A stretch of 64,000 nucleotides of DNA from Conchocele bisecta (lineage: Eukaryota > Mollusca > Bivalvia > Lucinida > Thyasiridae): NCBI GenBank assembly GCA_029237695.1, contig CM055272.1, positions 33,056,791 to 33,120,790 of the forward strand, written 5' to 3'. Numbering within the stretch: position 1 is the stretch's first letter; the number at the start of each line of letters is the position of its first letter. Positions 1,248 to 58,377 of this stretch are shown here, in pieces. The notes under the pieces are model-generated. The model worked only from the letters and a program-made list of their open reading frames with translations. It had not been told where the DNA came from and did not search any database. The translations under genes were made by a program, and so were the position numbers.

Positions 1248-1644
1248 ACAAGAAATGAGTCTGTCGAACGCGGATGCCATTTGCAGCATATTTGAGAAAC
1301 TGTGACAAAGTGGTTAACCGAAAAGTGTGACGGACGGACGTACAGACGTACAGACGTACAGACGGACAGACGGACAGATGGACGGACGGACGGACGTTCT
1401 TACATTACTATACTTATGTGGCTTATCACATGTTAAATATTAGCCACATAAAACGATTTTTAGCCACATAAAACGATTTTTTAGTTGGCTAATTGTAACC
1501 AACCCTATCCTTTACCAAGTCCATAACCCTGTGGGGCTAGCCACATAAGTACCCTAATGTGTGCCCGGACGGACGGACGGACGGACAGACAGATGGACGG
1601 TCCAAACACTATATGCCACCCGTTTCTTCGAAACCCGGTGGCAT
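1248..1644 (+). mobile_element. HINE (pearl-like), GATGCCAT/GGTGGCAT class
   Basis: The 5' end is ACAAGAAATGAG. A 5' block GATGCCAT (1273-1280) is complementary to the 3' arm GGTGGCAT of the terminal hairpin (1613-1644), allowing a G:T pair. ACGG/ACAG microsatellite is present twice (about 1328-1395 and 1566-1605). The element is inserted in the palindromic array element. Confidence 0.75.
1411..1551. mobile_element. Small MITE inside the HINE microsatellite
   Basis: Inverted ends TACTTATGTGGCT (1411-1423) and AGCCACATAAGTA (1539-1551) enclose a further internal 'agccacataaaacg' repeat. It lies between two ACGG-type tracts of the HINE, consistent with insertion into the microsatellite. Confidence 0.5.
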
Positions 1645-1672
1645 AAAAATCCATGTCCCCTGTGGGGCTCCA

Positions 1673-1880
1673 TATGTTTGCCTTCCAGTATATACTATTT
1701 GGTGGTCAAGATAAATATATAGGTCAAATATTTGAGATTGCAAACGTGTCAAGGGAATACACTGGCATATATATACAGTAAGGTGAAAGAGCTTAAAGTC
1801 CCAGCAACAGCCAAGGTCATATATAGACTAGGCCTCAGTTTCAAGTCTCGAGCAAAAGACTATAGTGAGTGAGATAGAAA
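1673..1880. other. No recognisable feature
   Basis: This is A+T-rich sequence with a weak match to the 'cagcaacagcyaaggtcat' repeat near 1780-1845. No coding or structured signal is visible. Confidence 0.4.
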
Positions 1881-2015
1881 TTAACCCATTTCAGTCTAAA
1901 GATACAATAATATTTGTCAAAAAAAATCTCACTATTTTGTTAATTCATACATAAAAGTATATGCTGTCGGTTCAAAAAGATTTTTTCTCAAAGGTTTCAT
2001 ACTACTTTAATTGTT
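1881..2015. mobile_element. Degenerate TTAA-type MITE, left half (TTAACCCATT family)
   Basis: It begins TTAACCCATTTCAG and continues into 'aaaatctcactattttgtt' and 'aaaagtatatgctgt', as in the tandem copies at 43017-43625. The central hairpin is degraded to GGTTCAAAAAGA. Confidence 0.5.
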
Positions 2016-2039
2016 TTTACATATATATGTATAATTGTA

Positions 2040-2238
2040 GCTCCAGATCAAATAGCACACTCACGTAGCCTGATAACGATAAGTATTGCTTGTTAGAAAC
2101 CTGACGGGTGTTGCATTGATGCAATGGTGAACGTTGCAGATCCTGATCAGACTGTGCGGATGCACAGGCTGATCTGGATCTACACTGGTCACAAAATCCA
2201 TAAGCCTCATTTCTCCAGTCACAGTGACACAGGAGACA
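2040..2238. repeat. Interspersed repeat Q (GATCAGACTGTGC core)
   Basis: It contains GATCCTGATCAGACTGTGCG, a reverse-complement-like CAGGCTGATCTGGATC, and the tail 'cataagcctcatttctccagtcac'. The same modules recur near 18230, 22505, 26410, 33840, 35690-36200, 36430, 47830 and 63510, in both orientations. The family is not known to me. The core is a foldback, so a MITE is likely. Confidence 0.6.
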
Positions 2239-2240
2239 CA

Positions 2241-2489
2241 CCATGTGGTTTTGTACCTATTAACATGTGCGATACATTTATCTCATGAAAAACATTTACA
2301 AAATTTACGGTATTTTCCGTAAATGGCATCCAAAGTTGACGAAATGTTCACAGCAAATGCGGAATATGATTCCGCATTTGCTATGAAAATTTAATCACCT
2401 TTCTGCATTATTTACAGAAAATATCACAGTTTCTATAAACATTTTTTTCATGAAAACTTGCACATCTTTGTAGGTATAAAATCACATGG
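2241..2489. mobile_element. MITE with CCATGTGATTTTGTACCT termini, copy 1
   Basis: Inverted ends are CCATGTGGTTTTGTACCT (2241) and 'aggtataaaatcacatgg' (2472-2489). The interior is A+T-rich and partly self-complementary (GCGGAATATGATTCCGC). A second copy is at 39927-40131. Confidence 0.7.
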
Positions 2490-2535
2490 CCAAATGGTCT
2501 CATTTACACACTGAACGCCCAAATCCACACCTGGA

Positions 2536-2648
2536 AAACATAGTTACGGGAAGTAACTCTGCAGAATACTCCCGTATTGTCCATACCCAGAGCGGTGCTC
2601 TCCATAGATTTCCCCTGCAAAGTAGCAAATCAGATCTGATTCGCACTT
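2536..2648. mobile_element. Short foldback MITE, family D copy 1
   Basis: It contains TAGTTACGGGAAGTAACTCT, 'attgtccatacccag' and the palindrome AATCAGATCTGATT. The same segments occur in reverse complement at 4917-5038, so these are two opposite-orientation copies of a ~115 bp element. Confidence 0.55.
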
Positions 2649-2656
2649 TTAGGTGT

Positions 2657-3892: not shown

Positions 3893-4210
3893 ATTGTGAC
3901 ATATTTTCTGTATTTTTCAATTGAAAGAAATGTCAGTATTGAAAAAGTAAAACAAACTTGTAATTCTGAAATAAATTTTATCATTGTAGTAGGACTAGAA
4001 AATTAAATATTGCCTTTTCAGTAACTGGACCTCAACATAAATTTTACATTCAGATTTTGGTTGCCACTCAACTTCACACAGACTGGGTCTGACTAGAGTC
4101 TAGCTTAAATTTACACAGCATGCAATCTACATCTGTAAATTTATGACAGATCTATTGAAATATATTCATTTGTAATACTGACCTTCATTTCTGTGGAATT
4201 AGAATAGTAA
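3893..4210. other. No recognisable feature
   Basis: A+T-rich single-copy-looking sequence between two transposons. No splice-bounded open frame or hairpin was found. Confidence 0.4.
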
Positions 4211-4214
4211 ATGC

Positions 4215-4898: not shown

Positions 4899-4916
4899 AA
4901 AATGTACCATAATCAA

Positions 4917-9757: not shown

Positions 9758-12130
9758 TTAACCCTTAGACCGCTACTCACAGCAATTGTCATCTGCTGTT
9801 GCTTTTATATCTTGCCTTATTTCTCAACAAGAAACGAGGCAAAGCCAAGAAGGCCAGGTTTTTTCCAAGCATAGACACTTGGATAACATAATTTTACCCA
9901 CTTTTTGTAGACTAGATGGCCGTGGCCTGCATATCGCGCCTTGGGGCGAGGCATGGACACTAAAAAAAATAGATATAGTAGATGGAAAAACTTTAACAAA
10001 AAAACTTTAACCGGACACACGGACGTACGGACGGAAGGACGGACGTATGCCAAAATGTCGACGATATTGCGCTTTCCGCAAGCGGGTGCGACAATATGAT
10101 AAACACCCATGTGAAGTATCAAGGTAATGGGTGAAGCAGTTGCAGAGATATAGTACACGAAAAAACTTTAACAAAAAAATTCAAAGTAATTTGACCTTGA
10201 CATTGGGCACAGGGGCCGCACGGTTGGGGATTAGAATGAAAATATGGATGATGATAAACACCCATGTGAAGTTTCAAGGTAATGGGCGAAGCAGTTGCAG
10301 AGATATAGTATAACGAAAAACTTTTAACCAAAAAACTTTAACCAGATGTACGTTAAAAAGTTAACGTTGAAAATGGCTAAGTCAATTACGTGGAAATAAC
10401 AGGTGAAGGTAAAAAAAATGGTCACATGTTGGATAGTTGTATGTGGTAGGCACCCCTTGGTTATGAAGCTGTGAATGTTTGGTGGTCCTAGGTGGTACAG
10501 TACCAAAGAAATGGACTTAAACACGAAAACTTAACATTGTAAACGCGAAAACTTAACATTGAAAATGGCTAAGTCGACTGCGCGGAAAAAATGGGTCAAG
10601 TTAAAAACAAGAAACGAGGCAAAGTCACGAAGGCCAGGTTTTTTCCAAGTATAGACACTTGGATAACATAATTATACCCACTTTTTGTAGACTAGATGGC
10701 CGTGGCCTGCATGTCGCGCCTTGGGGCGAGGCATGGACACTAAAAAAATAGATATAGTAGATGGAAAAACTTTAACGAAAAAAAAACTTTAACCGGACAC
10801 ACGGACGTACGGACGGACGGACGGACGGACGGACATATGCCAAAATGCCGACGATATCGCGCTTTCCGCAAGCAGATGCGACAATGATAATAAACACCCA
10901 TGTGAAGTATCAAGGTAATGGATGAAGCAGTTGCAGAGATATAGTACACAAAAAAATTCAAAGTAATTTGACCTTGACATTGGGCACAGGGGCCGCACGG
11001 TTGGGGGTTAGAATGAAAATATGGATGATGATAAACACCCATGTGAAGTTTCAAGGTAATGGGCGAAGCAGTTGCAGAGATATAGTATAACGAAAAACTT
11101 TTAACCAAAAAACTTTAACCAGACGTACGTTAAAAAGTTAACGTTGAAAATGGTCAATTACGTAGAAATAATAGGTGAAGGTAAAAAAATGGTCACATGT
11201 TGGATAGTTGTATGTGGTAGGCACCCCATGGTTATGAAGGTGTGAAAGTTTGGTGGTCCTAGGTGGTACAGTACCAAAGAAATGGACTTAAACACGAAAA
11301 CTTAACATTGTAAACGCGAAAACTTAACATTGAAAATGGCTAAGTCGACTGCGCGGAAAAAATGGGTCAAGTTAAAAAAAAAGTAAGATGTTGGATAGTG
11401 ATATGTGGTGGGCACCCCTTGATTATGAAGCTGTGAAAGTTTGGTGGTCCTAGGTGGTACAGTACCAATGAAATGGACTTAAACACGAAAACTTAACATT
11501 GTAAACGCGAAAACTTAACATTGAAAATGGCTAAGTCGACTGTGCGGAAAAAATAGGTCAAGTTAAAAAAAAATAACATGTTGGATAGTGATATGTGGTG
11601 GGCACCCCTTGATTATGAAGCTGTGAAAGTTTGGTGGTCCTAGGTGGTACAGTAACAAAGAAATGGACTGAAACACGAAAACTTAACATTGATTGTGGAC
11701 TCCGCCCGCCCGACGCCCGCCCGCCGCCCGCCCACCCGCCGCCCGCCCGCCCGGCTTCCGCCAATCCAATAGCCTGGATTTTTTTCTCAAAAAACCTGGC
11801 TAAAAAAGTAACATGTTGGATAGTGATATGTGGTGGGCACCCCTTGATTATGAAGCTGTGAAAGTTTGGTGGTCCTAGGTGGTACAGTAACAAAGAAATG
11901 GACTCAAACACGAAAACTTAACATTGATTGTGGACGCCGCCCGCCCGCCCGCCGCCCGCCGCCCGCCGCCCGCCAATCCAATAGCCTGGATTTTTTTTTA
12001 AAAAACCTGGCTAATAAAACCATGTTTTGACAGCACTTCAGAATCATTTCCAATGAAAATGATTCTAAAGTGCTGTCAAAGCATGTTGTTAATTATTCTA
12101 AAGTGCTGTCAAAGCATGTTTTTGATGATA
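9758..12130. mobile_element. TTAA-type MITE family e, copy 1, split by a HINE
   Basis: It starts TTAACCCTTAGACCGCTACTC and resumes at 12013 with AAAACCATGTTTTGACAGC and the hairpin centre CCAATGAAAATG. Uninterrupted copies read 'atttctcaataaaaacatgg' across the junction, locating the HINE insertion. The right TTAA end is not present. Confidence 0.75.
9827..12012 (+). mobile_element. Complex HINE, CCAGGTTTTTT/AAAAAACCTGG class, internally duplicated
   Basis: The 5' end ACAAGAAACGAGG with block CCAGGTTTTTT (9854-9864) is complementary to 3' ends AAAAAACCTGGC at 11789-11800 and 12000-12011. A ~779 bp unit is duplicated head to tail (9827-10605 and 10606-about 11370), so there are two 5' ends followed by two 3' ends. 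Each unit contains a smaller HINE with its own cognate ends (ATRTCGCGCC at 9931 and 10711; GCGACA hairpins at 10068-10093 and 10849-10873). CCGCCCG microsatellite precedes both 3' ends (11700-11757, 11936-11973). Confidence 0.7.
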
Positions 12131-13393: not shown

Positions 13394-14794
13394 ACAAGAG
13401 CTGTAGGAGAACAGCATAGCTCGACTACGAGGGTTGTCGATGTACACATAGCTTGACAAGTAATTGAAGAGGAAATGTAGGTCAAGGTCAAATATAGATC
13501 ATCGATGTACATCCCTATGAGAAAAGGTTGTCCAAGTATGGTGTCGGTATGCACAATAGTATTCCATGTACAAGCTTGACTAAAACCTTAAACAAGGTTG
13601 ACTAAAAACGTTAACTAAGGGGAATTAACTAAGTAATGCAAGGTTAAATATAGGTCAAGGTCAAATATAGGTCAGGAGTTGTTGATGTACATCACTAGGA
13701 GATGAAGTTGTCCAAGTATGGTTGGTGTAGGGCCAGGAGTATTCCATCTACTAGCTTGACTAACAAGAATTCCGCCACGGAAGCGGTGTCGCGCCTGCCG
13801 AGGCATTTGACCGTGAACATTACAAGTAAATAAATTACTTTGACCTTCAGAATTTGGATGTGGGGGTGTGCGTAATGAAGCATCATCCGTAGACAAACAT
13901 TGATGTGAAATATTATCAATGTCTGGAAAGGGGTTAAAGAGAAAACAATAACTTTAACGCATTTCTGTTACAAAACCGGTGAACATTACAAGTAAATAAA
14001 TGACCTTGACCTTGAGAATTTGGATGTGGGGGTGTGCGTACTGAAGCATATCTTTAGGAACAAACCATTCCCTAGACAAACATTGATGTGAAATATTATC
14101 AATGTCTGGCAAGGGGTTAAAGAGATATTGTGAATAAAGAATAACTTTAATGCATTTCTGTTACAAAACAGGTGAACATTACAAGGAAATAAATGACCTT
14201 GACCTTCAAAATTTGGATGTGGGGGTGTGCGTAAAGAAGCATCATCCCTAGACAAACATTGATGTGAAATATTATCAATGTCTGGCAAGGGGTTAATGAG
14301 ATATTGTGAAAAAACAATAACTTTAACGCATTTGCCTTACAAAAAAAACGGACGACGCGGACGCGGACGACGCGGACGACGCGGACGAGCGGACGACGCG
14401 GACGACGCGGACGGAAAAAGTTCTGACTATAGTCGCGCCTCTGCTAAAGCAGGCGCGACAAAAACCTTAAACAAGGGGAATTAACTAAGTAATTCAAGAG
14501 GAAAGGTTGTCCAAGTATGGTGTCTGTATGCACAATAGTATTCCATGTACAAGCTTGACTAAAAACCTTAACCAAGGTCGACTAAAAACGTTAACCAAGG
14601 GGAATTAACTAAGTAATTCAAGGTTAAATGTAGGTCAAGGTCAAATATAGGTCAGGGATTGTTGATGTACATCACTAGGAGATGAAGTTGTCCAAGTATG
14701 GTGGGTGTAGGGCCAGGAGTATTGCATATACAAGCTTGACTAAAAACCTTAACCAAGGCGTGGTGACGGTGACGCTGATGCCGGGGTGACTACA
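13394..14794 (+). mobile_element. HINE, ACAAGAGCTGTAGGAG class, split by a second HINE
   Basis: The 5' end ACAAGAGCTGTAGGAGAACA is followed by core units carrying 'aggtcaaggtcaaatata' and 'gatgtacatcactaggagatg' (13470, 13660, 14630). The 3' end is a short GGTGACG-type microsatellite and 'ggggtgactacat'. A matching 3' hairpin is not obvious, so the 3' terminus may be trimmed. The block 'gcttgactaa/aaaccttaa' is split by the inner HINE. Confidence 0.6.
13763..14460 (+). mobile_element. HINE, TGTCGCGCCTGC class, three core units
   Basis: The 5' end is ACAAGAATTCCGCC. Its block TGTCGCGCCTGC (13787-13798) is an exact reverse complement of GCAGGCGCGACA (14449-14460). The terminal hairpin is 14432-14459. 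Three ~177 bp core units contain TTTGGATGTGGGGGTGTGCG. The microsatellite is GACGCG-rich (14347-14412). The empty site GACTAAAAACCTTAACCAAGG is seen at 14553 and 14738. Confidence 0.85.
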
Positions 14795-17202: not shown

Positions 17203-17692
17203 CTACGGAGCCCCACAGGGGACGTGGAATTATTTTTTATTAATTTGTTACCACGAAGTAACAATTTGTTTCCACGAGATAACAATTTGTTCCCATAAAA
17301 TAATAATTTGTTCCCTCAATTTAACAATTCGTTCCCACAAATTAACAATTCACTCCCACAAATTAACAATTTGTTCCCTCAATTTAACAATTCATTCCCA
17401 CGAAATAACAATTCGTTCCCACGATATAACAATTTGTTCTCACTATATAACTGAGGGAACGAATTGTCGTTTCGTGGGAATGAATTGTTAATTCGAAGCA
17501 ACGAATTGTTATATAATGGAAACAAATTAATATTTCATGGGAACGAATTGTCAATTAGAGGGAACAAATTGTTATTTAGTGGGAACAAATTGTTAATATG
17601 AAGGAACAAATTGTTAAATTGAGGGAACAAATTGTTATTTGGTGGCAACGAATTAATAAAAAAAAATCCATGTTCACTGCGGGGCTCCGTAG
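17203..17692. mobile_element. Palindromic element built from ~20-bp tandem units, copy 2 (intact)
   Basis: The inverted ends CTACGGAGCCCC and GGGGCTCCGTAG are each flanked by CAAG, a possible target duplication. The left arm has about ten units of AACAATTTGTTCCCACGAAA type, the right arm the complementary units, so the element can fold over its whole length. It provides the empty-site reference for the HINE in copy 1. Confidence 0.8.
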
Positions 17693-23591: not shown

Positions 23592-24585
23592 ACTAGAAAT
23601 GTGGCCTGTCGGCACACGAATACCCCCACTGGCAGCAAAAGAAAACGAGGCATTTTTGATTATAAGCCATTTAGCCGAGCGTTAAGGTTTCAAACGCATC
23701 AAGTCTGTGACCTTGACCCTGGGCATAGTGTGATAATCCATGCATCGGTGTAGAAGATATAGAGCGGAAGGGAATTTCAATAGGTTTGACCTTTGACCTT
23801 CAACTATGACCTTGACCTTGGATGTAGGTGCGTGGTTATTGATCGCGACACACCTTCTCATCCTGAGAAACATTTGTGCCAAGGCATTTCATAATCCATG
23901 CATCGGTGTAGAAGATATAGAGCGGAATGGAATTTCAATAGGTTTGACCTTTGACCTTCAACTGTGACCTTGACCTTGGACGTAGGTGCGTGGTTATTGA
24001 TTGCGACACACCTTCTCATCATGAGAAACATTTGTGCCAAGCCATTTGATAATCCATGCATCGGTGTAGAAGATATAGAGCGGAATGGAATTTCAATAGG
24101 TTTGACCTTTGACCTTCAACTGTGACCTTGGACGTAGGTGCGTGGTTAGCAATTTGATAATCTATGCATCAGTGTAGAAGATATAGAGCGGAAGGGAATT
24201 TCAATAGGTTTGACCTTTGACCTTCAACTGTGACCTTGACCTTGGACGTAGGTGCGTGGTTATTGATCGCGACACACCTTCTCATCATGAGAAACATTTG
24301 TACCAAGCCATTTGATAATCCATGCTTCGGTGTAGAAGATATAGAGCGGAAGGGAATTTCAATAGGTTTGACCTTTGACCTTCAACTGTGACCTTGACCT
24401 TGGACGTAGGTGCGTGGTTATTGATCGCGACACACCTTCTCATCATGAGAAACATTTGTGCCAAGCCATTTGATAATCCATGCATCGGTGTAGAAGATAT
24501 AGAGCGGAAGGGAATTTCCAACAGACCGACAGACCGACAGACTGACTCCTATATACCCCCAACAAACTTTGTTTGTGGGGGCATA
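23592..24585 (+). mobile_element. HINE, AATACCCCCAC/GTGGGGGCAT class, six core units
   Basis: The 5' end is ACTAGAAATGTGGCC. The block ATACCCCCAC (23620-23629) pairs with GTGGGGGCAT (24575-24584) of the terminal hairpin (24553-24584). Six ~165-178 bp core units (23733 to 24510) contain 'gtttgacctttgaccttcaa' and 'gtgcgtggttattgatcgcg'. The fourth is partly deleted. An ACAGACCG tract precedes the hairpin. Confidence 0.85.
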
Positions 24586-24661
24586 ACTATAGAAGGATTA
24601 ATCGTTTTTCTCTGAGAAGTTACAGTGCAACGTCACTGAACTTGACATCTAGAAAAATTAT

Positions 24662-25185
24662 TAAACGTACATGCCCACTCAGTAGGCACAAAATGTTCTT
24701 TATATCGGAGACATCATCCAAGACATTTCCTGGCAAAATAAACATTCATTCACCATTACCCCACATATTGATTGGCATTATTATACATTTTGTATCAGAC
24801 GTAAATTTGCACACTGATATCAGGGGCGGTAACTGTGTTTCCTTAAAATGTTAACAGACATTACTATTTATTCTCTGTATTTATTTTTTGATGTGCAATG
24901 ATTATACTTTATAATCTGTCGAAAATGCTATTTTGTTAGGCGACGCATTCAATTTGTATAAATAATTAAAAAATATCGTGCCTTATTTGCATATGAAAAT
25001 AGCCTGATACCACCGCGCATCACTATCAGTAAAATAAATATTAATAAATGATTAAATATGACTAAATGATCTGTATAGCGGGCCCTCGCAATTTTTAGAA
25101 CTGGTGGAATAAATACACACTTATACACTTATTTAATTCCTATAAAGAATGTTTTGTGCCTACTGAGTGGGCATGTACCTTTAAA
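24662..25185. mobile_element. MITE family q, copy 2
   Basis: TIRs ACATGCCCACTCAGTAGGCA and TGCCTACTGAGTGGGCATGT. The interior is collinear with 8636-9146, including CATTTGCATATGAAAATAGC. Confidence 0.85.
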
Positions 25186-27378: not shown

Positions 27379-27446
27379 AACTTATAATATTGCTTGAAAA
27401 AATTATATTATTCCACCCAAATGTTATTGTATAGTTGCCAATTGAA

Positions 27447-28231
27447 ACAAGAAAATGTAGCCTGTCGGCACACGAATGCCCCCGGTGGCAGATTAAAGAA
27501 ACTGTGGCAAAGTTAATTAAACCAAAGTGATAATTATTCACAAGCACATTTATGAAGGTCAAAAGGCGATGGTCATATTAAGGGTAGTGTGGATGTGTGA
27601 CATTTGTCCACAAGTATAATGTATTGAAATATTAAAGTAATCCATCAAGGGATGTAGAAGTTATGACAGAATTGAGAAACTCAGGCAAACTTCTTAATGT
27701 GTTAAAATGTTCAAAGCTGTGAAGGTCAAAAGGTCATATTAAGGGCAGCATGGATGTGTGGCATTTGTCCCCAAATATGATGTATTGAAATATTAAAGTA
27801 ATCCACCAAGGGATATAGAAGTTATGACAGAATTTAGAAACTCCGGCAAACTTCTTAATGTGAATTAAAAGTTCAAAGTTGTGAAGGTCAAAAGGTCAAG
27901 GTCATATTAAGGACAGCATGGCTGTGTGGCAATTATCCATAAGTATTGAAATATTCAAGTAATCCAAGGGATATAGAAGTTGAGAAACTCCGGCGAACTT
28001 CTTAATGAGTGAAAAAGTTCAAAGTTGTGTAGGTCAAGGTCATATTAATGGCAGCATGGATGTCTGGCATTTGTCCACAAGTATGCTGTGTTCTAATTTT
28101 TCGGCAATCCTTCAAGGGATATAGAAGTTATGACATAATTGAGAAACTCTGGCGAACTTCTTAATGTGCTGGACACACGGACACACAGTCCAAACACTAT
28201 ATGTCTCCGGCTCTACTGAGACCGGGAGCAT
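27447..28231 (+). mobile_element. HINE, ATGCCCCCGGT/ACCGGGAGCAT class, four core units
   Basis: The 5' end is ACAAGAAAATGTAGCC. ATGCCCCCGGT (27476-27486) pairs with ACCGGGAGCAT (28221-28231), one mismatch. The terminal hairpin is 28201-28231. About four core units contain 'gaaggtcaaaaggtcatatt' and 'gatatagaagttatgacag'. The host sequence 'ccaaatgttattgtatagttgcc-attgaaa' is repeated beyond the 3' end. Confidence 0.8.
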
Positions 28232-28372
28232 AAAAATATCCATTGAAAAAATCCTATTTTCCCACCCCAATGTTATTGTACAGTTGCCCATTGAAAAAAA
28301 TCCCATTACTTTGTTGAACAAAAATATCTGATTTGCTTAGAAAATTGCATACTCTTTTAATGGTTTCCCGCC

Positions 28373-30168: not shown

Positions 30169-30411
30169 GTCCCCTCTGCCCAGACAATCCTTCGAATCTG
30201 ATACACAGGACCGCCTTTTAAAGTCTAGCGAAATTTCCGTTCCTTTTATAGTAAGGCTGTAGCTATTAAAACAGGCCAGTGGCTGAGAAAATGGGCCAGT
30301 GGCACAAAAATGGGCCAGGCTCGCGCCATGAAATATCACACACTTACTGAACATGCTGTGATACGCGTGCCATGACGTGAATTCATGGTGCATTAAGTAA
30401 TTGCCATGATA
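30169..30411. other. No recognisable feature
   Basis: Short direct motif 'gggccagtggc' occurs twice near 30285-30310. Nothing else was noted. Confidence 0.35.
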
Positions 30412-31746
30412 ACAAGAATTCCGCCACGGAAGCGGTATCGCGCCTGCCGAGGCATTTGACCGTGAACATTACAAGTCAATAAATGACCTTGACCTTGAAA
30501 ATTTGGATGTGGGCGTGTGCGTAATGAAGCATCATCCCTAGACAAACATTGATGTGAAATATTATCAAAGTGTGGCAAGGGGTTAAAGAGATACAATGTA
30601 TTGTGAAAAAACAATAACTTTAACACATGTCTGTTACAAAACCGGTGAACATTACAAGTAAATAAATGACCTTGACCTTGAGAATTTGGATGTTCATTAC
30701 GCATCATCCCTAGACAAACATTGATGTGAAATATTATCAAAGTGTGGCAAGGCCGAGGTTAAAGAGATATTGTGAAAAAAGAATAACTTTAAACGCATTT
30801 CTGTTACAAAACCGGTGAACATTAAAAGTAAATAAATGACCTTGACCTTGAGAATTTGGATGTGGGGGTGTGTGTAATGAAGCATCATCCCTAGACAAAC
30901 ATTGATGTGAAATATTATCAAAGTCTGGCAAGGGGTTAAAGAGATATTGTGAAAAAAGAATAACTTTAAACGCATTTCTGTTACAAAACCGGTGAACATT
31001 AAAAGTAAATAAATGACCTTGACCTTGAGAATTTGGATGTGGGGGTGTGTGTAATGAAGCATCATCCCTAGACAAACATTGATGTGAAATATTATCAAAG
31101 TCTGGCAAGGGGTTAAAGAGATATTGTGAAAAAACAATAACTTTATGAAAGTCTGGCAAGGGGTTAAAGAGATATTGTGAAAAAACAATAACTTTAAACG
31201 CATTTCTGTTACAAAACCGGTGAACATTAAAAGTAAATAAATGACCTTGACCTTGAGAATTTGGATGTGGGTGTGTGTGTAATGAAGCATCATCCCTAGA
31301 CAAACATTGATGTGAAATATTATCAAAGTCTGGCAAGGGGTTAAAGAGATATTGTGAAAAAACAATAACTTTAAACGCATTTCTGTTACAAAACCGGTGA
31401 ACATTAAAAGTAAATAAATGACCTTGACCTTGAAAATTTGGATGTGGGGTGTGCGTAATGAAGCATCATCCCTAGACAAACATTGATGTGAAATATTATC
31501 AAAGTGTGGCAAGGCCGGGGTTAAAGAGATATTGTGAAAAAAGAATAACTTTAAACGCATTTCTGTTACAAAACCGGTGAACATTAAAAGTAAATAAATA
31601 ACTAGACCTTCAGAATTTGGTTGTGGGGGTGTGCGTAATGAAGCATCATCCCTAGACAAACATTGATGTGAAATATTATGAAAGTCTGGCAAGGGGTTAA
31701 AGAGATATTGTGAAAAAACAATAACTTTAACGCATTTGCCTTACAA

Positions 31747-33453
31747 ACTAGATGGCCGCGGCCTGCATGTCGCGCCTTGTGGCGAGGCATGTACACTAAA
31801 AAAAGAGATATAGTATAACGAAAAACTTTAACCAAAATACATAACCAAAAAACTTAACCAAAAAGTTTAACCGGACACACGTACGTACGCCAAAGTGCCG
31901 ACTATATCACGCTTTCCGCAAGCGGGCGCGACAAAAACATTAACCAAAAACTTCAAAGTAATTTGACCTTGACATTGGGCACAGGGGCCGCACGGGAGGG
32001 GGGTAGAATGAAAATATAGATGATGATAAACACCCATGTGAAGTTTCAAGGTAATGGGCAAAGCAGTTGCAGAGATATAGTATAACAAAAAAATTTAACC
32101 AAAAAACTTAACCAAAAAACTTAACCAAAAACTTCAAAGTAATTTGACCTTGACATTGGGCACAGGGGAAAAACTTTAACCAAAAACTTAACCAAAAAAC
32201 TTAACCAAACAACTTAACCTAAAACTTCAAAGTAATTTGACCTTGACATTGGGCACAGGGGCCGCACGGGAGGGGGGGGGGTAGAATGAAAATATAGATG
32301 ATGATAAACACCCATGTGAAGTTTGAAGGTAATGGGCAAAGCAGTTGCAGAGATATAGTATAACGAAAAACTTTAACCAAGAAACTTAACCAAAAACTTT
32401 AACCAAAAAACTTAACCAAAAACTTCAAAGTAATTTGACCTGGACATTGGGCACAGGCGCCGCACGGGAGGGGGGTAGAATGAAAATATAGATGATGATA
32501 AACACCCATATGAAGTTTCAAGGTAATGGGCTAAGCAGTTGCAGAGATATAGTATAACGAAAAACTTTAACCAAAAAACTTAACCAAAAAACTTAACCAA
32601 AAACTTTAACCAAAAAACTTAACCAAAAACTTCAAAGTAATTTGACCTTGACATTTGGCACAGGGGCCGCACGGGAGGGGGGTAGAATGAAAATATAGAT
32701 GATGATAAACACCCATGTGAAGTTTCAAGGTAATGGGCAAAGCAGTTGCAGAGATATAGTATAACGAAAAACTTTAACAACAAACTTTAACCAAAAAAAC
32801 TTAACCAAAAACTTTAACCAAAGAACTTAACCAAAAACTTTAACCAAAAAACTTAACCAAAAACTTTAACCAAAGAACTTAACCAAAAACTTCAAAGTAA
32901 TTTGACCTTGACATTGGGCACAGGGGCCGCACGGGAGGGGGGTAGAATGAAAATATAGATGATGATAAACACCCATGTGAAATTTCAAGGTAATGGGAAA
33001 AGCAGTTGCAGAGATATAGTATAACGAAAAACTTTAACCAAAAAACTTAACCAAAAAACTTAACCAAAAACTTCAAAGTAATTTGACCTTGACATTGGGC
33101 ACAGGGGCCGCACGGGAGATGGGTAGAATGAAAATATAGATGATGATAAACACCCATGTGAAGTTTCAAGGTAATGGGCAAAGCAGTTGCAGAGATATAG
33201 TATAACGAAAAACTTTAACCAAAAACTTTAACCAAAAAACTTAACCAAAAAACTTAACCAAAAACTTTAACCAAAGAATTTAACCAAAAACTTTAACCAA
33301 AAAACTTAACCAAACAACTTAACCAAAAAACTTAACCAAAAACTTTAACCAAAAAACTTAACCTTACAGCTTAACCAAAAACTTTAACCGGACAACGTAC
33401 GTACGTACGCCAAACGGCCGACTATATCGCGCTTTCCGCAAGCGGGCGCGACA
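31747..33453 (+). mobile_element. HINE, TGTCGCGCC/GGCGCGACA class, with AAAAACTTTAACC minisatellite
   Basis: The 5' end is ACTAGATGGCCGCGG. TGTCGCGCC (31768-31776) is an exact reverse complement of GGCGCGACA (33445-33453). About six core units (TTTGACCTTGACATTGGGCA...CAGTTGCAGAGATATAGTAT) alternate with variable runs of the 13-mers AAAAACTTTAACC and AAAAAACTTAACC. The empty site GCCTTACAAAAAAAACGGAC is present in the related HINE at 14334. Confidence 0.85.
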
Positions 33454-33514
33454 AAAAACGGACGACGCGGATGACAACGGACGACGCGGACTATGAAAAA
33501 AGCGCCGAATATAG

Positions 33515-33604
33515 TCGGTGACTCAGAGAAACCACTACAAATTTTGTCGCGCCTGCTTTAGCAGAGGCGCGACAAATATTGTAGTGGTTTCTCTGAGTCA
33601 CCGA
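33515..33604. repeat. 90-bp palindrome centred on a HINE terminal hairpin
   Basis: TCGGTGACTCAGAGAAACCA (33515) is mirrored by TGGTTTCTCTGAGTCACCGA (33585-33604). The centre is the hairpin GTCGCGCCTGCTTTAGCAGA... which is inverted relative to the same hairpin in 14432-14459. Confidence 0.8.
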
Positions 33605-33837
33605 CGCTTCTAATGACGTTTGCAATAGGATGACGTCAACATCAAAACATAGATGCTCTGTCGCACCATTAGGGACGTCATTTGGTACGTCTTCATTTTG
33701 TCTGTTTGGCATAACGTTGTTGCAGGTGTTAATACATGCGTGTACTAACACATTTATGAAATGGGATACACAACACGTGAAAACAAGGTTTTCATGTGAT
33801 AAAGATCGTTATCAGGCTGACACGAGTGTGTTATAAT
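33605..33837. other. No recognisable feature
   Basis: TGACGT-type words recur (33613, 33631, 33674). No repeat or exon could be supported. Confidence 0.35.
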
Positions 33838-33898
33838 GTGATCAGGAGCTACACTGGTCACAATTCCCATAAGCCCCATTTCTCCAGTCACAGCCACA
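33838..33898 (+). repeat. Repeat Q fragment
   Basis: 'gtgatcaggagctacactggtcacaa' and 'cataagccccatttctccag' match the Q family. The next HINE starts directly after it. Confidence 0.55.
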
Positions 33899-33899
33899 A

Positions 33900-34236
33900 A
33901 CTAGAAAATGTGGTCTGTGTCAACGCACTTAGGGCCCCTATTTGAGAAACTCTTACAAAAACATTCAAATAAATACACGGACAGACAGACGGATGTTCGA
34001 TCAGTAGTTAGGGTAATTGTATTAATGTGGAAGGATGTATCGTTACAAAGTAATGCATGTGTGCAATATGAAGATATTAGCTGAAGGAAACAGAAATTAT
34101 GGGTGATTTGAGAAACTCTTACAAAAATTTTCAAAAAATAAACGGACGGACAGACGGACAGACGGACAGACTGACGGATGGACAGACACTCAGGGCGAAA
34201 CCTATAGGGCACTGCCGATTCTCAGCGGGGCCCTAT
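33900..34236 (+). mobile_element. HINE, TAGGGCCCCTAT/GGGGCCCTAT class
   Basis: The 5' end is ACTAGAAAATGTGGTC. AGGGCCCC (33931-33938) pairs with GGGGCCCT (34227-34234). The terminal hairpin ATAGGGC...GCCCTAT is 34204-34236. About two core units end 'tttgagaaactcttacaaaa', each followed by GGACAGAC microsatellite. Confidence 0.8.
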
Positions 34237-34569
34237 TAAGTAATTTTGTTTGTCGGGAACATGCAGGCTAATCTGGGCCTAAACTGATTATTCAATACCA
34301 GCATGACGTATGTTTCTTAATTGTTTGTTCGAATTATGCTTGCTAATAATATAAAGCTACTAGAGAAAGTGGGCAGGGGCTCACATATACATACCCCTGG
34401 CCGCGCCTGGACCGACAAATAAAAACTTTAACGCAAATATTTAAAAATCTTTAACTCAAATTTCTAAGTAATTTCACCTTGACATTGGACATTAAGGCGC
34501 ATGGTTGTGGTACGGAATGAAAATATGGATGATCAGAAGGAAGTATATGGAGTATGCGGTCAATCCGAC
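34237..34569. other. Mixed HINE-core-like fragments
   Basis: 'ctaagtaatttcaccttgacattgg' and 'gtacggaatgaaaatatggatgat' (34460-34530) resemble HINE core units of 10180 and 52700. No ends were found. Confidence 0.4.
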
Positions 34570-36605: not shown

Positions 36606-36889
36606 ACAAAAAAGGTATATTGTACACATGACTTAGTACTCACGAAATAAGACGTTTTGATACATCTGTCACCTACAGGCTTACCATGAAATATATCTGT
36701 GGATGGAAAGTGAAAAGTGGAAGTGATTGGGTGTAACGTCCAATCAACAGCTGAGGTCATTTAGGGATGTGACCTTGGTTTCAAGTCACATTCGAAAGAC
36801 CATGTATGATGGATACACTATGAACGTATTGTTATTCCTAGCACAGGTATTGAACCCACAACCTCTGGTATTAAAGACCTGGGGCCCGT

Positions 36890-37130
36890 TTCACTAAACA
36901 TCGTACGACTAAAATGTTTGATCGTCAGTGTGAATTTAGGATCGTCTGGAAATTTCAATTGATGGATTTACATTTATTGAGCATAGGCTGCATTATATGC
37001 AGCCTATGCTCAATAAATGTAAATCCAATAAATGTTTACAAGAAAACACTGTTAATGTGAAATTTACCCACTATCACAATTTTACACTTACAAACATTTT
37101 ATTCGTACAAAGTTAAGTGAAACGGCCCCC
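36890..37130. mobile_element. MITE family g copy
   Basis: GGGGCCCGTTTCACTAAACA to 'aaagttaagtgaaacggccccc'. The central palindrome is GCATAGGCTGCATTATATGC. Confidence 0.75.
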
Positions 37131-37431: not shown

Positions 37432-38361
37432 CAGAGCTCCAGATAAGCTGCGTATTTGCGTAAATACCCAATATGTACCCCAGAGCTCCAGATAAGCTGC
37501 GTATTTGCGTAAATACCCAATTAAAATTGCCAAAAACCCAATTGAAATCAGAAGTTAAGTGAGTATCAAAAAGCAATGAAAAATGTGTGGTATCTTTATC
37601 ATGCTACAGAAAACAGACCACAAATATAGCATATTTTCTTATTTTTCCATGAAAACACATCTTGGTATTTCATTAGAATTGTCTCCATGGAGACAATTCT
37701 AATGAAATACCAACATGTGTTTTCATTTAGAAGCAAACTATTCAATAAGTGCGGTCTGCTGATGTGTAAACAGTAGTGTGATTCTATTTTACACAATTAA
37801 CATTTTGAAATACCCAATTGCTTCAGAAATGATGGAGTGACAATACTCAATTACAAACTAGAGGATTGTTTATCAGACAAAAACATATGTCTACCCCAAT
37901 ACCACCACTGCATGTTATCAGGACTTGTATTGCATACTTTTGAAGATACGTGCAACACAAGTTGAATATCCCCACTTGTCACTAAGTCAATGGCCATAAC
38001 TCCGTGAATACTGGATTAATCCGCATTTAAAACCCCAGGTGCGCAACTTCACAAGATGACCAGTATTCCTGTAAAGTTTCACGACTCTAACTGAAATACA
38101 TTTAGAGACACGCGTGACACAAGTTGAAAATTCCCACTTTTCACTAAGTCAAGGGCTATAACTCCGTGAATATTGGATGAATCCGCATCTAAAACCCCAG
38201 GTGCGCAACTTCACACGATGACCAGTATTCCTGTAAAGTTTCACGACTGTAACTCAAAAATTTGTGACGGACAGATGGACAGACGGACGGACGGACAACC
38301 AAGCCAAAAACAATATGTCTCCCCATTCATGGGGGAGACATAATTCCTTATCTGGAGCACA
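37432..38361. mobile_element. hAT-like MITE family f, copy 5, split by a HINE
   Basis: CAGAGCTCCAGATAAGCTGC starts twice with a 49-bp period (37426-37523) because the first 49 bp, with flank GTACCCC, are duplicated. The central palindrome is intact. The MITE is cut at 'ctcaattac' and resumes at 38342 as AATTCCTTATCTGGAGC. GTACCC flanks both outer ends. Confidence 0.8.
37857..38341 (+). mobile_element. HINE, ATGTCTACCCC/GGGGGAGACAT class, two core units
   Basis: The 5' end is ACTAGAGGATTGTTTATC. ATGTCTACCCC (37887-37897) pairs with GGGGGAGACAT (38331-38341), one mismatch. The hairpin is 38315-38341. Two ~160 bp core units contain 'ccataactccgtgaatactg' and 'ttaaaaccccaggtgcgcaa'. The insertion site is defined by the intact f copies. 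Confidence 0.85.
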
Positions 38362-46740: not shown

Positions 46741-47379
46741 CAGAGCTCCAGATAAGCTGGGTATTTGCTTAAATACCCAACTAAAATTGCCAAAAACCCA
46801 ATTGAAATCAGAAGTAGCGTCGAGTATCAAAAAGCAATAAATAACAAGAATTCCGCAGAATCAAATGTCTCGCTTTGTTCCACCTTGACCTTGACCCTGG
46901 GGCCTTGACTTTGACCCTGGGACCCCGAGAATAGTCCTATATTCATGTACATATCATAGTAAAGGTATGTATAAAGTTTGATGACGGTAGCTGATAAAGT
47001 GTTGAAGTAATGACCATAACACGAAAACATAACATTGAATGATGATGCCGCCGCCGACTCCGACGACGACGCCGCCGCCGACTCCGGAAAAGCAAAACCT
47101 ATGTCTCGCTTCCGCTTTCGCGGGCGAGACAAAAATACCTTTATCATGCTGCAGAAAACAATAAACAGACCACAAATATATCATATTTTTCTTATTGTCC
47201 AAGGAGACAATTCTAATGAAATGTAAGAAGTGTTTTCATTTCGAAGCAAACTTTTCAATAATTGATGTGTAAACAGTAGTGTGATTTTATTTTACAAAAT
47301 TAAAATTTTGAAATACCCAATTGCTTCAGAAATGATGGAGTGACAATACTCAAATACTAATTCCTTATCTGGAGCCCTG
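46741..47379. mobile_element. hAT-like MITE family f, copy 6, with 8-bp TSD, split by a HINE
   Basis: CAGAGCTCCAGATAAGCTGG (46741) to TTCCTTATCTGGAGCCCTG (47379). The 8-mer TGCACAAT lies directly on both sides, a perfect hAT-type duplication. The body is cut at 'aaaagcaataaa' by the HINE and resumes at 'tacctttatcatgctgcag'. Confidence 0.9.
46844..47131 (+). mobile_element. HINE, ATGTCTCGCT/GGCGAGACA class, compact
   Basis: The 5' end is ACAAGAATTCCGCAG. ATGTCTCGC (46865-46873) pairs with GCGAGACA within GGGCGAGACA (47122-47131). The hairpin is 47101-47131. There is one core unit with TTGACCTTGACCCTGGG, and the microsatellite is CGCCGCCGACTCCGACG-like. Confidence 0.85.
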
Positions 47380-52503: not shown

Positions 52504-52587
52504 AAATCATGAAACCAGCTGGGACAATCAAATGCTGGATATATAGAGGATTCACTCCTTGTAGGTGATTCACCACAGGAATGTGAG
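52504..52587 (+). pseudogene. DIRS RT fragment with degraded catalytic motif
   Basis: The block encodes MKPAGTIKC and, after a frameshift, GYIEDSLLVGDSPQECE. YIED occupies the place of the reverse-transcriptase YxDD box, so one catalytic aspartate is glutamate. It is interrupted directly after this by a HINE. Confidence 0.6.
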
Positions 52588-53510
52588 ACCAGATGGCCGC
52601 GGCCCGATTGTCGAGCCACCGAGGCATTTGATGGTCTCCGAATGTATTTATTTGAAGTTTGAATTAAGGGTTGTGGAGACATACGGTATGTAAAAACTTT
52701 AAAGCAAATTTTAAAGTCATTTGGCCTTGATCTTGGGCATGTGGGCCGCATGGGTGGGCTTTAGAATGAAAATATGGATGATAATAAAAATATATTTTAA
52801 GTTTGAAGTAAATCGGAGTAAGTTGTGTGGAGATTTAAAGTATGAAAAACTTAACACAAATTTGACCTTGACCTTGGGCATGTGGACCACATGGGAAGAC
52901 TATAGAATGAAAATATGGATGAGTAAGGTATGTAAAAACTTCAACGCAGATTTTATAATAACGCAAACTTCGAAGTCATTTGGCCTCGACCTTGGGGCAC
53001 AGGGGCCGCATGATTGGGACACAGAATGAATATATGGATGATGCCCAGTAAGCATACAAAGTTTCAAGCAAATCTGACTTACAGTTACAGAGACGTGAAA
53101 ACTTTAACGCAAATTTTGACAGAAACTTTAACGCAAATTTTGACAACTTTAACGCAAATTTTGACAAAAATTTAACGCAAACTTCTAAGTCATTTGACCT
53201 TGACCTTGGGCACAGGGGCCGCATGAGTGGGACACAGCATGAATATATGGATGATGACTAATAAGCATTATGAAGTGTCAAGTCAATGTGACTTAGGACT
53301 GCAGAGATATAAGGTGGACGGACGGACGGACGGAGACGGACGGACACGGATGGACGGACGGACGGACCAGACGGACGGACGGACGCGGCACGCACACACG
53401 CACACACGCACACACGCACGCACGCACGCACGCATGCACGCACGCACTCATGGACACCCGGACGTTATTGTGATCACTATGTCTCGCTTTCCGCAAGGGG
53501 GCTCGACAAA
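52588..53510 (+). mobile_element. HINE, TGTCGAGCC/GGCTCGACA class, inserted in RT
   Basis: The 5' end is ACCAGATGGCCGCGG. TGTCGAGCC (52609-52617) is an exact reverse complement of GGCTCGACA (53500-53508). The hairpin is 53480-53508. About four ~130 bp core units contain 'tttgaccttgaccttgggca' and 'gaatgaatatatggatgatg'. The long ACGG then ACGC/ACAC microsatellite is 53313-53451. Confidence 0.85.
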
Positions 53511-53717
53511 AAATGTCATTGACACAGTTGATCTAATGACAGATGTCGGCTTCATGATTCATGAAAAGAAATCAGTGTTGAAGCCCACACAATCCATTTA
53601 ATTTTTGGGCAATAACATAAATTCAGTGGAAATGATTGTGACATTGTCCAAAAACAAAGTGGATTTGATTGTTCAAGAGTGCAAAGAGATGTACAAATCG
53701 GCTACCATCACTAGGTC
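53511..53717 (+). pseudogene. DIRS RT fragment (thumb side)
   Basis: The frame reads NVIDTVDLMTDVGF and HEKKSVLKPTQSI, then a stop, then FLGNNINSVEMIVTLSKNK. The pattern 'G-hydrophobic-H-x-E/K-K-S ... FLG' is the usual segment just after the YxDD box in RT. It ends where MITE cc begins. Confidence 0.65.
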
Positions 53718-54838: not shown

Positions 54839-55018
54839 TGAATAATCGTATCAGACGCCTCACTATCTGGTTGGGGATCAGTTTGTAATGGTCATAAAAT
54901 AGGCGCTGATTGAAAGAAAATGAATCTGACAATCAAATCAATTATCTGAAAATGTTAGCAGCACTACTAGAGTTGAAAGTATTCTGCGGTCATCACCATG
55001 ACACACATGTGCAAATAC
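54839..55018 (+). pseudogene. DIRS RNase H, first part
   Basis: IIVSDASLSGWGSVCNG carries the D-A-S...GWG signature that opens the RNase H fold; LAALLELKVFCG follows. One in-frame stop lies between. Confidence 0.7.
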
Positions 55019-55022
55019 TATA

Positions 55023-55370
55023 GAAATGAATGGCCTTTTTGTGGAATTTATCGGGGTATAAACTTGGAAAAGTCGCGGAAATACTGGACAAAGGTCGGAA
55101 GGCCTCGTCCAGTATTCCCGCGACTTTTCCAAGTTTATATCCCCGATAAATTCCACAAAAAGGCCATTCATTCCTTATAATTCCAGCATTTGAAATAAAT
55201 TCATCAAGAAAATGTGTTTATTTTCCGTTTTCTTAAGAATTATTTTAACTGCGCCTCACGATTACGGAAAATAGTTCGGCGGGAGTTTACTGGGATATAA
55301 ATTTTGGACAGAGACTTGCTACGGGCCAATCAAATGTTAGGGAATTGTGTAAATATTTTTGTGCTGGAAT
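55023..55370. mobile_element. TATA-flanked 348 bp insertion containing a 65-bp-arm palindrome
   Basis: TATA lies on both sides (55019-55022, 55371-55374). The left part is a palindrome: AATGAATGGCCTTTTTGTGG (55025) mirrored at 55153-55172, centre near 55098. The right end segment 'gtgctggaattata' recurs at 45070-45140. Its removal leaves the RNase H frame open. Confidence 0.7.
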
Positions 55371-55640
55371 TATACAGTGATATCACCTGTACCGGTTCAT
55401 ATATTAACAACATGGGCGGGATTAAATCATTGAAACAGTGCAATAACATCGCTGTAGAAATGTGGTCATGGTGTAGAGAACGGAGGATATAGGCTTAGTG
55501 CTGCTCCCATTGCAGGGGTTGATAATGTTGACTACAAATCTAGTAATTTCAATGACAACATTGAGTGGATGCTCGATCCTAGCATATTCCACACAATTAC
55601 CATTATCTGGCCTCAAGGCTCAACAAACAGTTAAATAGTA
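55371..55640 (+). pseudogene. DIRS RNase H, second part
   Basis: SDITCTGSYINNMGGIKSL, then NNIAVEMWSWCRERRI, then stops and shifts; further on NVDYKSSNFNDNIEWMLD is legible. 'AYINNMGG' with a following WxW segment is typical of DIRS RNase H. It ends 'cctcaaggctcaacaaacagttaaatag'; a near copy of this lies at 58479. Confidence 0.7.
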
Positions 55641-55847
55641 TCAGTAGCCTATTTCACAAACATTGCAAAGTATACTTATCTAACAAAAGTATACTTTGAG
55701 GGAGACATTTTAAATTTAAGGATTAATTTATGAATTTTTATTATATTCAATTTATTACATTATCATGCACAGCCAATAATAAATTCAGTATAATAATTCT
55801 GCATACTTTTAATCATCAAATATGTGCAGTGGTTAGTTCTATATGAA

Positions 55848-58377
55848 ACTAGAAATGGACGCTTGTCGACAAGCGCATGTGTATCCCCCTCCCCAGATAC
55901 ACAAGTAGTTTGAAAAAAGGGTGATCGAGTTATGCTCCGGAGACAAAATCGGTGACGGACAAAGGGAGATAACTAAACAATTAGTGATGCAAGAGTTGTC
56001 AATCTTGCGCGACACACCTTTAGGGTCTATGCATGTGTGAAGCTACTGGAGTGCAGAATTATTTGTTAATAGTCCTATATTTATGTACATATATCTATCT
56101 GCACAGGTGCACATAATGCCACAATATTTTCAACACAGTTGACGGAAATGTAATATAGAATGTAAATAAAAAAAATAATGCTCGCTACTGGAGCCGAGAA
56201 TTTTTTTTAATAGTCCTATATTTATCTACATATATCTGCACAGGTCCACATACTGCCACAATATTGTCAACACAGTTTAGGTAAATGTAATAATTTAGCT
56301 GTATAAATTACCTGTAATAAGTTAGTGGTCAGTTAAAAAATTTAAAAAGAATGTAAAAAATTTTTTTTTAAAAAAAAAGTTGAAAAATAAAAAATAATAA
56401 TACTTGCTACTGGAGCCCAGAATTTTTTTTTAATAGTCCTATATTTATCTACATATATCTGCACAGGTCCACATAATGCCACAATATTTTCAACACAGTT
56501 TACGGAAATGTAATATACAAATTTTTTTTTTTTAAATAATGCTCGCTACTGGAGCCCAGAATTTTTGTTAATAGTCCTATATTTATCTGCATATATCTGC
56601 ACAGGTCCACATACTGCCACAATATTGTCAACACAGTTTACGGAAATGTAATAATGTACCTGTATAAATTACCTGTAATAAGTTAGTGGTCAGTTAAAAA
56701 ATTGAAAAAGAATGTAAAAAAAAAAATGGAAAAAAAAATTAAATTAAAAAAAAGAAAAAGAATAATGCTCCCTACTGGAGCCCAGAATGTTTTTTAATAG
56801 TCCTATATTTATCTACATATCATATATACACAGGTCCACATATTCCCACAATATTTTCAACACAGTTTACGGAAATGTAATATAATCATTTACCTGTATA
56901 AATTACCTGTTGTCAGTGGTCAGTTGCACATGCTAGCACATGCACAGGTGAATAGTCTGTATATAGCACTTACCACCTTATGCTACTAGACAAAAATTGA
57001 AAAATAATTTGAAAAAAAAAATGAACAAAAAAAAATGGAAAAAAAAAGTTTAAAAATAATAATGCTTGCTACTGGAGCACAGAATTTTTTTTTAATAGTC
57101 CTATATTTATCTACATATATCTGCACAGGTCCACATAATGCCACAATATTTTCAACACAGTTTACGGAAATGTAATATAATCATTTACCTGTATAAATTA
57201 CCTGTAAGTGGTCAGTGGTCAGTTGCACATGCTAGCACATGCACAGGTGAATAGTCTGTATAAAGCACTTACGACCTTATGCTACTAGACAAAAATTGAA
57301 AAATAATTTGAAAAAAAAAAACAAAAAAAAAAAAAAAAAGGAAAAAAAAAAAAAAAAGGAAAAAAAAAAGAAAAGGAAAAAAATAATAATGCTTGCTATT
57401 GGAGACCAGATTTTTTTTAATAGTCCTATATTTATCTACAAAAATCTGCACAGGTCCACATAATGCCACAATATTTTCAACACAGTACCCAATGTAGTGA
57501 TTTACCTGTATAAATTACCTGGTCAGCAGTGGTCAAGCACTGGACATCTGCACATGCTAGCCCATGCTAGCACATGGTTCTCCCAGTTTTTTTTGTTCTC
57601 TCTACAGGTAAGGTGTACAGAGCACACGAGAAAAGGTGTACAGAGCAGACGAGAAAACAGGTCTTCATGCATTATTGTCCAGTTTGTAGAGTGCGCAAAA
57701 CAAAAAAGGGAGATAACTCAAAAATTAGCTACGCAAGAGTTGTCATTCTTGTGCGCGACACACCTCCGGGTCGTGTCTATGCATGTGTGAGTTTCATGAA
57801 AATATTCCAAAGGGTGGTCGAGTTATGCTCCGGACAGGAAATCAGTGAGCGAAAACAAAAAAGGGAGATAACTCAAAAATTAGCTATGCAAGAGTTGTCA
57901 TTCTTGTGCACGACACACCTTCGGTTCGTGGTCTAATTGAATGTGTTAAGTTTCATAAAAATATTCCAAAGGGTGTCGAGTTATGGTTAATCAGTTGCGC
58001 AAAACAAAAAAGGGAGATAACTAAAAAAATAGCTATGCAAGAGTTGTCATTCTTGTGCGCGACACACCTTCGGGTCGTGGTCTATGCATGTGTAAAGTTT
58101 CATGAAAATATTCCAAAGGGTGGTGGAGTTATGCTCCGGACACGAAATCAGTGCGGGAAACAAAAAAGGGAGATAACTAAAAAATTAGCTATGCAAGAGT
58201 TGTCATTCTTGCGCGCGACACACCTTCGGGTCGTGGTCTATGCATGTGTGAAGTTTCATGAAAATATTCCAAAGGGTGTTCGAGTTATGCTCCGGACAAG
58301 AAGTGTCTGCGGCGGACGCAGACGCGGCGCGCTGTCAAATCCATAGTATCCCCCGACGGAGTCCGGGGGATACAATA
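55848..58377 (+). mobile_element. 2.5 kb HINE, TGTATCCCCC/GGGGGATACA class, with two repeat arrays
   Basis: The 5' end ACTAGAAATGGACGC includes the small palindrome GCTTGTCGACAAGC. TGTATCCCCC (55880-55889) is an exact reverse complement of GGGGGATACA (58365-58374); the hairpin is 58346-58373. Core units of ~150 bp with AAAGGGAGATAACTCAAAAA and GAGTTATGCTCCGGAC lie at 55905-56045 and, four times, at 57700-58300. Between them are seven ~125-330 bp units starting 'gctactggagcccagaattt'. The frames of 97-146 codons here are repeat translations. Confidence 0.85.
56050..57540. repeat. Array of seven units inside the HINE
   Basis: Units contain TCCTATATTTATCTACATAT, 'tctgcacaggtccacataatgccac' and 'acacagtttacggaaatgtaat', beginning near 56062, 56195, 56420, 56550, 56790, 57080 and 57400, with A-rich spacers of variable length (e.g. 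57300-57390). Unit length varies because of spacer expansion and deletion. Confidence 0.8.

Follow-up and report, generated by a model that had tools for sequence, protein, structure and literature searches.

Helitron2 elements have been described as carrying an asymmetric terminal inverted repeat (ATIR, also called subTIR) in a hairpin at the 5' end and a second ATIR copy upstream of a hairpin at the 3' end, with compensatory changes between the copies and a proposed ATIR pairing that opens the 5' hairpin (PMC3627910). The same end structure in their non-autonomous relatives, the Helitron2/Helentron elements known as HINEs, is also supported by PMC5148889. One oyster genome contains 11 HINE elements with element-specific subTIRs (PMC7492417), and one mite harbours seven families with 21 subfamilies, a family being defined by a common subTIR (PMC4067079). 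Papers given by PMC number are represented here by parts of their text. The present analysis concerns HINEs in a 64,000-nt stretch of the bivalve Conchocele bisecta (contig CM055272.1, C8:33056791-33120790, in a genome of 1.89 Gb), called the window. It was studied together with 100 kb on either side, and region coordinates refer to the resulting 264 kb. On the samples taken, neighbouring HINEs of several families are shown to be co-oriented below about 50 kb, and in places up to 264 kb, within a genome that is balanced overall.

Read on the minus strand, ten elements listed in an earlier note on this stretch share a common order. They start in a T-rich stretch with an inverted repeat, which pairs with an inverted copy of itself to form a 5' hairpin; in most cases a GTC-type microsatellite or another short repeat comes next, and in the longer elements tandem repeats. 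A second copy of the inverted repeat lies near the other end, and then a short palindrome. The TTCTWGTT end is exact in eight of the ten and has one mismatch at 37857. All eight GTC-microsatellite clusters of the window and 14 of its 15 TTCTWGTT motifs lie on the minus strand, and T runs or T-rich stretches occur at many 5' ends. Paired ATIRs of about 8-15 bp are present at both ends (the 1245-1646 element has six bases in common); the 5' copy lies near the 5' terminus and forms its hairpin with downstream bases, while the 3' copy is followed by a 3' palindrome close to the 3' terminus. These elements are thereby shown to have the end structure of HINEs on the minus strand, and the paired blocks of the earlier note are shown to be the 5' and 3' ATIRs, co-varying among families. 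Both the order and the co-variation of the ends bear out its identification of the elements as HINEs, but it had the ends the wrong way round: on the minus strand its 3' hairpin is the 5' end and its 5' block belongs to the 3' end. Two scans of viral contigs, for two end motifs, gave no match in either.

Strand uniformity was assessed with sequence profiles of the ends. At 8 bits the first profiles gave 36 minus and 1 plus 5' matches and 17 minus and 0 plus 3' matches in the 264 kb, with an exact mirror in the reverse complement. With refined profiles, built from 33 5' ends and 21 3' ends, the 5' modules of at least 10 bits were 43 minus and 2 plus, and the 3' modules of at least 8 bits 25 minus and 0 plus. 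A reversed-sequence decoy produced 1 and 0 matches, respectively, at the same thresholds. Removal of a both-strand palindrome, with its plus match at region 133542, leaves 42 minus and 1 plus 5' modules. A TGTCGCGCC hairpin is enclosed by an extended palindrome (TGACTCAGAGAAACCACTACAA... with its complement) at window 33500-33620, so that the end profile matches both strands there.

Two non-flagged repeats of other kinds in the 264 kb, taken as controls, lie on mixed strands (4 plus and 6 minus; 6 plus and 4 minus), and reverse-transcriptase frames occur on both. Because the first match of a palindromic repeat fixes its strand, the repeats flagged as palindromic are unusable as a control; some of them look one-sided, one with 9 plus and 1 minus. 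By self-alignment, HINE-HINE bins are 42 direct only, 1 inverted only and 4 both, against 337, 213 and 768, respectively, for other pairs, whose lean towards direct pairs is perhaps due to unrecognised HINEs. An asymmetry of T runs as the cause of the bias was not seen, with 473 T and 506 A runs of at least 4 on the plus strand of the window outside the elements.

Uniformity is also found elsewhere. All six fetched loci with at least two modules of one kind (L005, L007, L008, L029, L030 and L031; at least 7 bits) have all their profile matches on one strand, plus in five and minus in one. In a transect along C8, the point at 31.5 Mb yielded nothing, 32.5 Mb only two TTCTWGTT motifs on the minus strand, 34.7 Mb plus modules, and 36.7 Mb one weak minus match of 9.0 bits. 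Genome-wide, the 3' end of a first family occurs 2446 times in forward and 2410 times in reverse orientation (0 for a reversed control pattern), and a second family 1484 and 1568 times. For a strand survey on C1, the first 100 places of the first family (0.28-26.84 Mb) were thinned to 88 and the first 100 of the second to 90, by dropping same-family matches less than 10 kb from the previous one. At separations of 10-50 kb, 17 of 18 pairs of the first family lie on the same strand; the count is 14 of 18 for 50-100 kb, 22 of 26 for 100-200 kb and 35 of 81 for 200-400 kb. This family forms 33 strand runs, compared with 44.8 expected (731 of 100,000 shuffles were as low). Across the two families, all nine pairs under 50 kb agree, and a combined shuffle test gave 60 of 5000 at 50 kb. 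Two families placed by DNA searches were too sparse to be informative (same to opposite strand 2:0 at 5-50 kb, 2:1 at 50-300 kb and 2:1 at 0.3-1 Mb). Strand agreement is thus strong at distances under about 50 kb and has faded by 50-200 kb; the block of 264 kb is a long example.

The second character of these elements is the pairing of their ends. All ten block pairs of the earlier note were found again, within 1 base. Its claim that the blocks are reverse complements is correct in full for five pairs (13787, 52609, 55880, 33931 and 9854), correct with one mismatch for three (23620, 27476 and 37887) and over 8 bases for the 46865 pair; the 1273/1637 pair has only the 6-base core TGGCAT in common. 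In these ten elements the hairpin arm matches its own partner region with a mean of 9.0, compared with 5.39 (standard deviation 0.51) for shuffled partners, and 0 of 100,000 shuffles did as well. Against the other nine partner regions, the own partner is the row maximum for all ten arms and the unique maximum for eight. Since the pairs had originally been picked by complementarity, the shuffle test was redone with ends located otherwise, 5' modules through a profile based on eleven window elements and 3' sites through the TTCTNGTT motif with at most one mismatch. For 33 independently located modules of the 264 kb (three of 36 were left out, two with poor hairpins and one palindrome), own pairing scores 8.24 of 11 and shuffled pairing 7.24 (standard deviation 0.15; 0 of 20,000). 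When each of the 14 ATIR families was represented by a single member, over 20 draws, a median of 3 in 20,000 shuffles did as well, and 108 in the worst draw. Shuffled pairs are therefore not as good as the real ones in the ten pairs or in the 33 modules, and the earlier proposal that the two ends co-vary among classes is upheld. Chance matching among GC-rich blocks might be suspected, given that several classes are C-rich and that the ten pairs were selected by complementarity, but shuffled pairings of the same ends do worse in both tests, and this explanation is exceedingly improbable.

The further proposal that all three arms are kept equally complementary was not supported. The comparison used 21 of the 33 modules (ten removed by score and two by hand, with one low scorer retained by hand). 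In 11 of them the end copies match each other better than the hairpin arms do, in 7 equally well and in 3 less well, so that pairing across the ends seems closer than pairing within the hairpin, an outcome favoured by the choice of the 3' site by best match. In 17 of the 21 elements the predicted ATIR:ATIR duplex exceeds the 5' hairpin in stability, a comparison biased towards the duplex by the same choice of site. In the model of Bao and Jurka (2013), the 3' ATIR copy would pair with the 5' copy late in rolling-circle strand displacement, and this pairing would open the 5' hairpin and fix the end point. If so, both ends would have to change together, because the 3' ATIR pairs with the 5' one. 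Complementary ends, compensatory changes and the coexistence of many families have already been published, and the present elements are added members. The view of the earlier note that the joint occurrence of many classes is unusual is not supported, as PMC7492417 and PMC4067079 describe many per genome.

The elements of the window are as follows.

636-667, minus strand: 5' module, folding as the hairpin TAGCTCACCTG.../...GTGAGCTA; the HINE to which it belongs has its 3' end outside the window, in the left flank, where the matching 3' inverted repeat lies 1463 nt downstream
1245-1646, minus strand: HINE of the ATGCCACC class; 5' hairpin 1612-1645, 3' inverted repeat 1273-1280, TTCTTGTT end 1247-1254
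9828-12017, minus strand: HINE of the AGCCAGGTTTTTT class that contains a second set of ends (about 10602-11804); the short repeat of this element is rich in GGCGGGC and not of the GTCC kind
13758-14465, minus strand: HINE of the TGTCGCGCCTGC class, by end structure; 40 of 4784 genome candidate copies scored
23590-24586, minus strand: HINE of the ATGCCCCCAC/ATACCCCCAC class, by end structure; 158-bp tandem repeats
27445-28232, minus strand: HINE of the ATGCTCCCGGT/ATGCCCCCGGT class, by end structure
30405-33457, minus strand: composite of one 3' end (30409-30465), repeats of 177-180 bp, another 3' end near 31755, and 5' modules at about 31937 and about 33457 (TGTCGCGCCCG)
33896-34237, minus strand: HINE of the TAGGGCCCC class, by end structure
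37857-38343, minus strand: HINE of the ATGTCTCCCC class; its 3' end, CCTCTAGTTT, differs from TTCTWGTT by one mismatch
46840-47134, minus strand: HINE of the TGTCTCGC class, by end structure
52577-53511, minus strand: HINE of the TGTCGAGCC class, with CATCTGGTCT in place of the TTCTWGTT end; both end copies are TGTCGAGCC, the hairpin arm is TGTCTCGC
55844-58377, minus strand: HINE of the TGTATCCCCC class; length 2.5 kb, including long tandem arrays
62642-62680, minus strand: probable HINE 3' end of the GGATGCCAT class, with a profile score of only 3.4 bits; no 5' partner was found for it

The ends additional to the ten listed pairs are those at 636-667 and 62642-62680 and the modules at 30405-33579; we infer which ends belong together in the composite at 30405-33457.

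Host genes provide a reference for HINE orientation. The Pfam scan of the 264 kb covered 107 of 299 frames, plus 106 of 1184 shorter or remaining ones. Among the scanned frames the only recognised host gene is a nuclear receptor on the minus strand, left of the window, with the following exons.

Region 24564-25103 and 57559-58053 (L011, L014), minus strand: possible nuclear receptor exons, assigned by eye only
Region 30384-31001 (L012:384-1001), minus strand: nuclear receptor ligand-domain exon, by Pfam
Region 36637-36966 (L012:6637-6966), minus strand: nuclear receptor zinc-finger exon, by Pfam

Three 5' modules of at least 10 bits lie between the Pfam-supported exons, or nine when the exons assigned by eye are counted, all of them sense. 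At other loci, where 61 of 357 frames were scanned, two plus 5' modules lie between plus-strand ATR exons (C6:35.13 Mb) and a plus HINE lies between plus-strand exons of a TRPM-like channel (C6:35.55 Mb); both C6 loci had been chosen for the presence of a HINE. At C8:34.70 Mb a plus HINE stands beside a plus KY-like exon, a tentative assignment at 24 bits against a Pfam cut-off of 27. HINEs are thus sense with respect to the host gene in three of three firm cases, and in four of four with the tentative one.

Several findings weigh against this reading of structure, shared orientation and gene sense. The 52577 element, one of the ten listed, is without the TTCTWGTT end, and 4 of 21 elements have a 3' palindrome that is predicted to be weak (above -1 kcal/mol). 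Module counts are profile matches and not independent elements, part of them inside composites. The remaining plus 5' match, at region 232929, looks real. On C8, one plus and one minus module lie within 8 kb at 33.70 Mb, and with the plus modules at 34.7 Mb this implies that the minus block ends before there. Across families, pairs on the same and on opposite strands number 5 and 6 for distances of 50-100 kb and 9 and 9 for 100-200 kb; within the second family they number 2 and 2 at 10-50 kb, and the combined shuffle test is non-significant at 100 kb (661 of 5000) and 200 kb (1317 of 5000). The genes are few, with a one-sided sign test of 0.13 for the three firm cases or 0.06 with the tentative one. 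HINEs beyond the recognised nuclear receptor exons are also minus, so that either the gene is longer than seen or the cause is other than transcription.

Among explanations for the shared orientation, insertion directed by transcription is favoured weakly, at a little under an even chance. A single transposon strand would be joined into the coding (non-template) strand where DNA is transcribed, and sense orientation inside genes would follow. In human cells, Helraiser inserts preferentially at promoters, within gene bodies and in genes with high expression (PMC4778049). Replication might direct insertion instead, if a single-stranded intermediate joined the lagging-strand template as in IS608 and ISDra2. 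Orientation blocks would then mark fork direction, and sense orientation would again result where forks run co-directionally with transcription. This would fit the extension of the minus block past the recognised gene, the genome-wide strand balance and the IS200/IS605 precedent (PMC5371812). However, agreement fades within 50-200 kb, 94% agreement demands an almost fixed fork direction, and the composition skew outside the elements is weak (AT 0.013, standard error 0.006; GC 0.002, standard error 0.008), all of which leaves replication an unlikely, though serious, candidate. Composition skew proved too weak to be used as a fork marker, and the stronger skews close to elements in the small loci probably reflect unmasked element sequence. 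A broader proposal covers both routes: strand-directed insertion, into the transcribed coding strand or the lagging-strand template of a co-directional fork, with orientation recording the direction of transcription or of forks chromosome-wide. Its chances appear evenly balanced, which is less than the two insertion readings would give together, because a near-complete genome-wide bias is also required.

Two further explanations do not need strand-directed insertion. Selection could remove antisense intronic copies after insertion both ways, for example through harmful splice or polyadenylation signals, and a selection-driven orientation bias of intronic elements has been proposed in mammals (PMC3517506, PMC1794541). 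The abstracts of those mammalian studies report an antisense excess, whereas the few cases here are sense, and selection would have to produce a near-complete local bias (42:1 or 43:2) in 14 ATIR families with elements of about 0.3 to 2.5 kb; we regard it as improbable. Local copying, by which copies land near their parent the same way round or arise by tandem or segmental duplication, is compatible with the existence of tandem clusters (e.g. C1 16.698-16.703 Mb) and with agreement at 50-200 kb that is higher within the first family than across families. It is very hard to reconcile with the agreement of nine out of nine pairs of different families under 50 kb and among the 14 ATIR families of the 264 kb, and same-family matches within 10 kb had been thinned; its probability is slight. 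The explanation as a whole, comprising HINE ends, end pairing through ATIRs and local co-orientation, with coding-strand insertion as its less certain part, is held with good confidence.

Other features were observed in the same DNA. Arrays of a 21-bp unit (GGGAACGAATTGTT...) occupy window 1041-1240 and 17242-17654, in both directions, head to head at about 17452. Palindromic repeats resembling miniature inverted-repeat transposable elements (TACTGAATTTATTACATTATCACAGCC...) lie at window 7186, 19601, 35109, 39334 and 40291 and in the flanks, with 18 loci in the 264 kb. Near 33.70 Mb on C8, a long open frame (L034:751-1671, minus) matches DDE_Tnp_1_7, which we take to be piggyBac-type. Long open frames are also present at L018:3687-5943 (minus) and at L023:7131-7652 and L024:6153-7683 (plus). 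By eye they appear to encode a single kind of protein, in multiple copies and on both strands, and Pfam gave no match for four long frames (two in L018 and two in L024).

Among the matches listed in the literature search, as titles and beginnings of abstracts and with subscription papers and bioRxiv preprints mostly outside, there was no report of local strand uniformity in Helitrons or Helentrons. The end pairing supplies the published model with natural co-varying ATIR families. Of greater weight is the orientation result: near-uniform local orientation across unrelated families that seems to follow genes would, if true, reveal the place and time of entry of the single-strand intermediate into the host chromosome. 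Elements of the IS200/IS605 type use a Y1 transposase and guide-sequence pairing with their cleavage sites. As may be the case for the present elements, IS608 and ISDra2 combine single-strand insertion with an orientation set by a genome-scale directional process (PMC5371812). They are a precedent only, being bacterial with different enzymes, and the direction here seems to follow genes.

The closest likeness is to the Helitron2 group (Bao and Jurka 2013, PMC3627910), which shares the 5' ATIR hairpin, the 3' ATIR before a 3' hairpin, the compensatory changes and the proposed cross-end pairing. In contrast to that account, many families are present here in one genome, and local strand uniformity goes without mention in the available part of it. 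The Cg_HINE elements of the Pacific oyster similarly have a subTIR, a complementary inverted repeat, a 3' subTIR with a palindrome and several families, as well as GTCC-type microsatellites in several elements and satellite-like tandem repeats. Their description states integration in both orientations, in the part available without a comparison of neighbours or genes (PMC7492417). The DINE-1/HINE elements of Drosophila and mite share subTIRs, a 5' inverted repeat, a 3' stem loop, T-rich insertion sites and families defined by identical subTIRs; the 3' subTIR of the mite elements lies 38-60 bp from the 3' terminus (PMC4067079), and here it lies about 15-30 nt before the TTCTWGTT motif.

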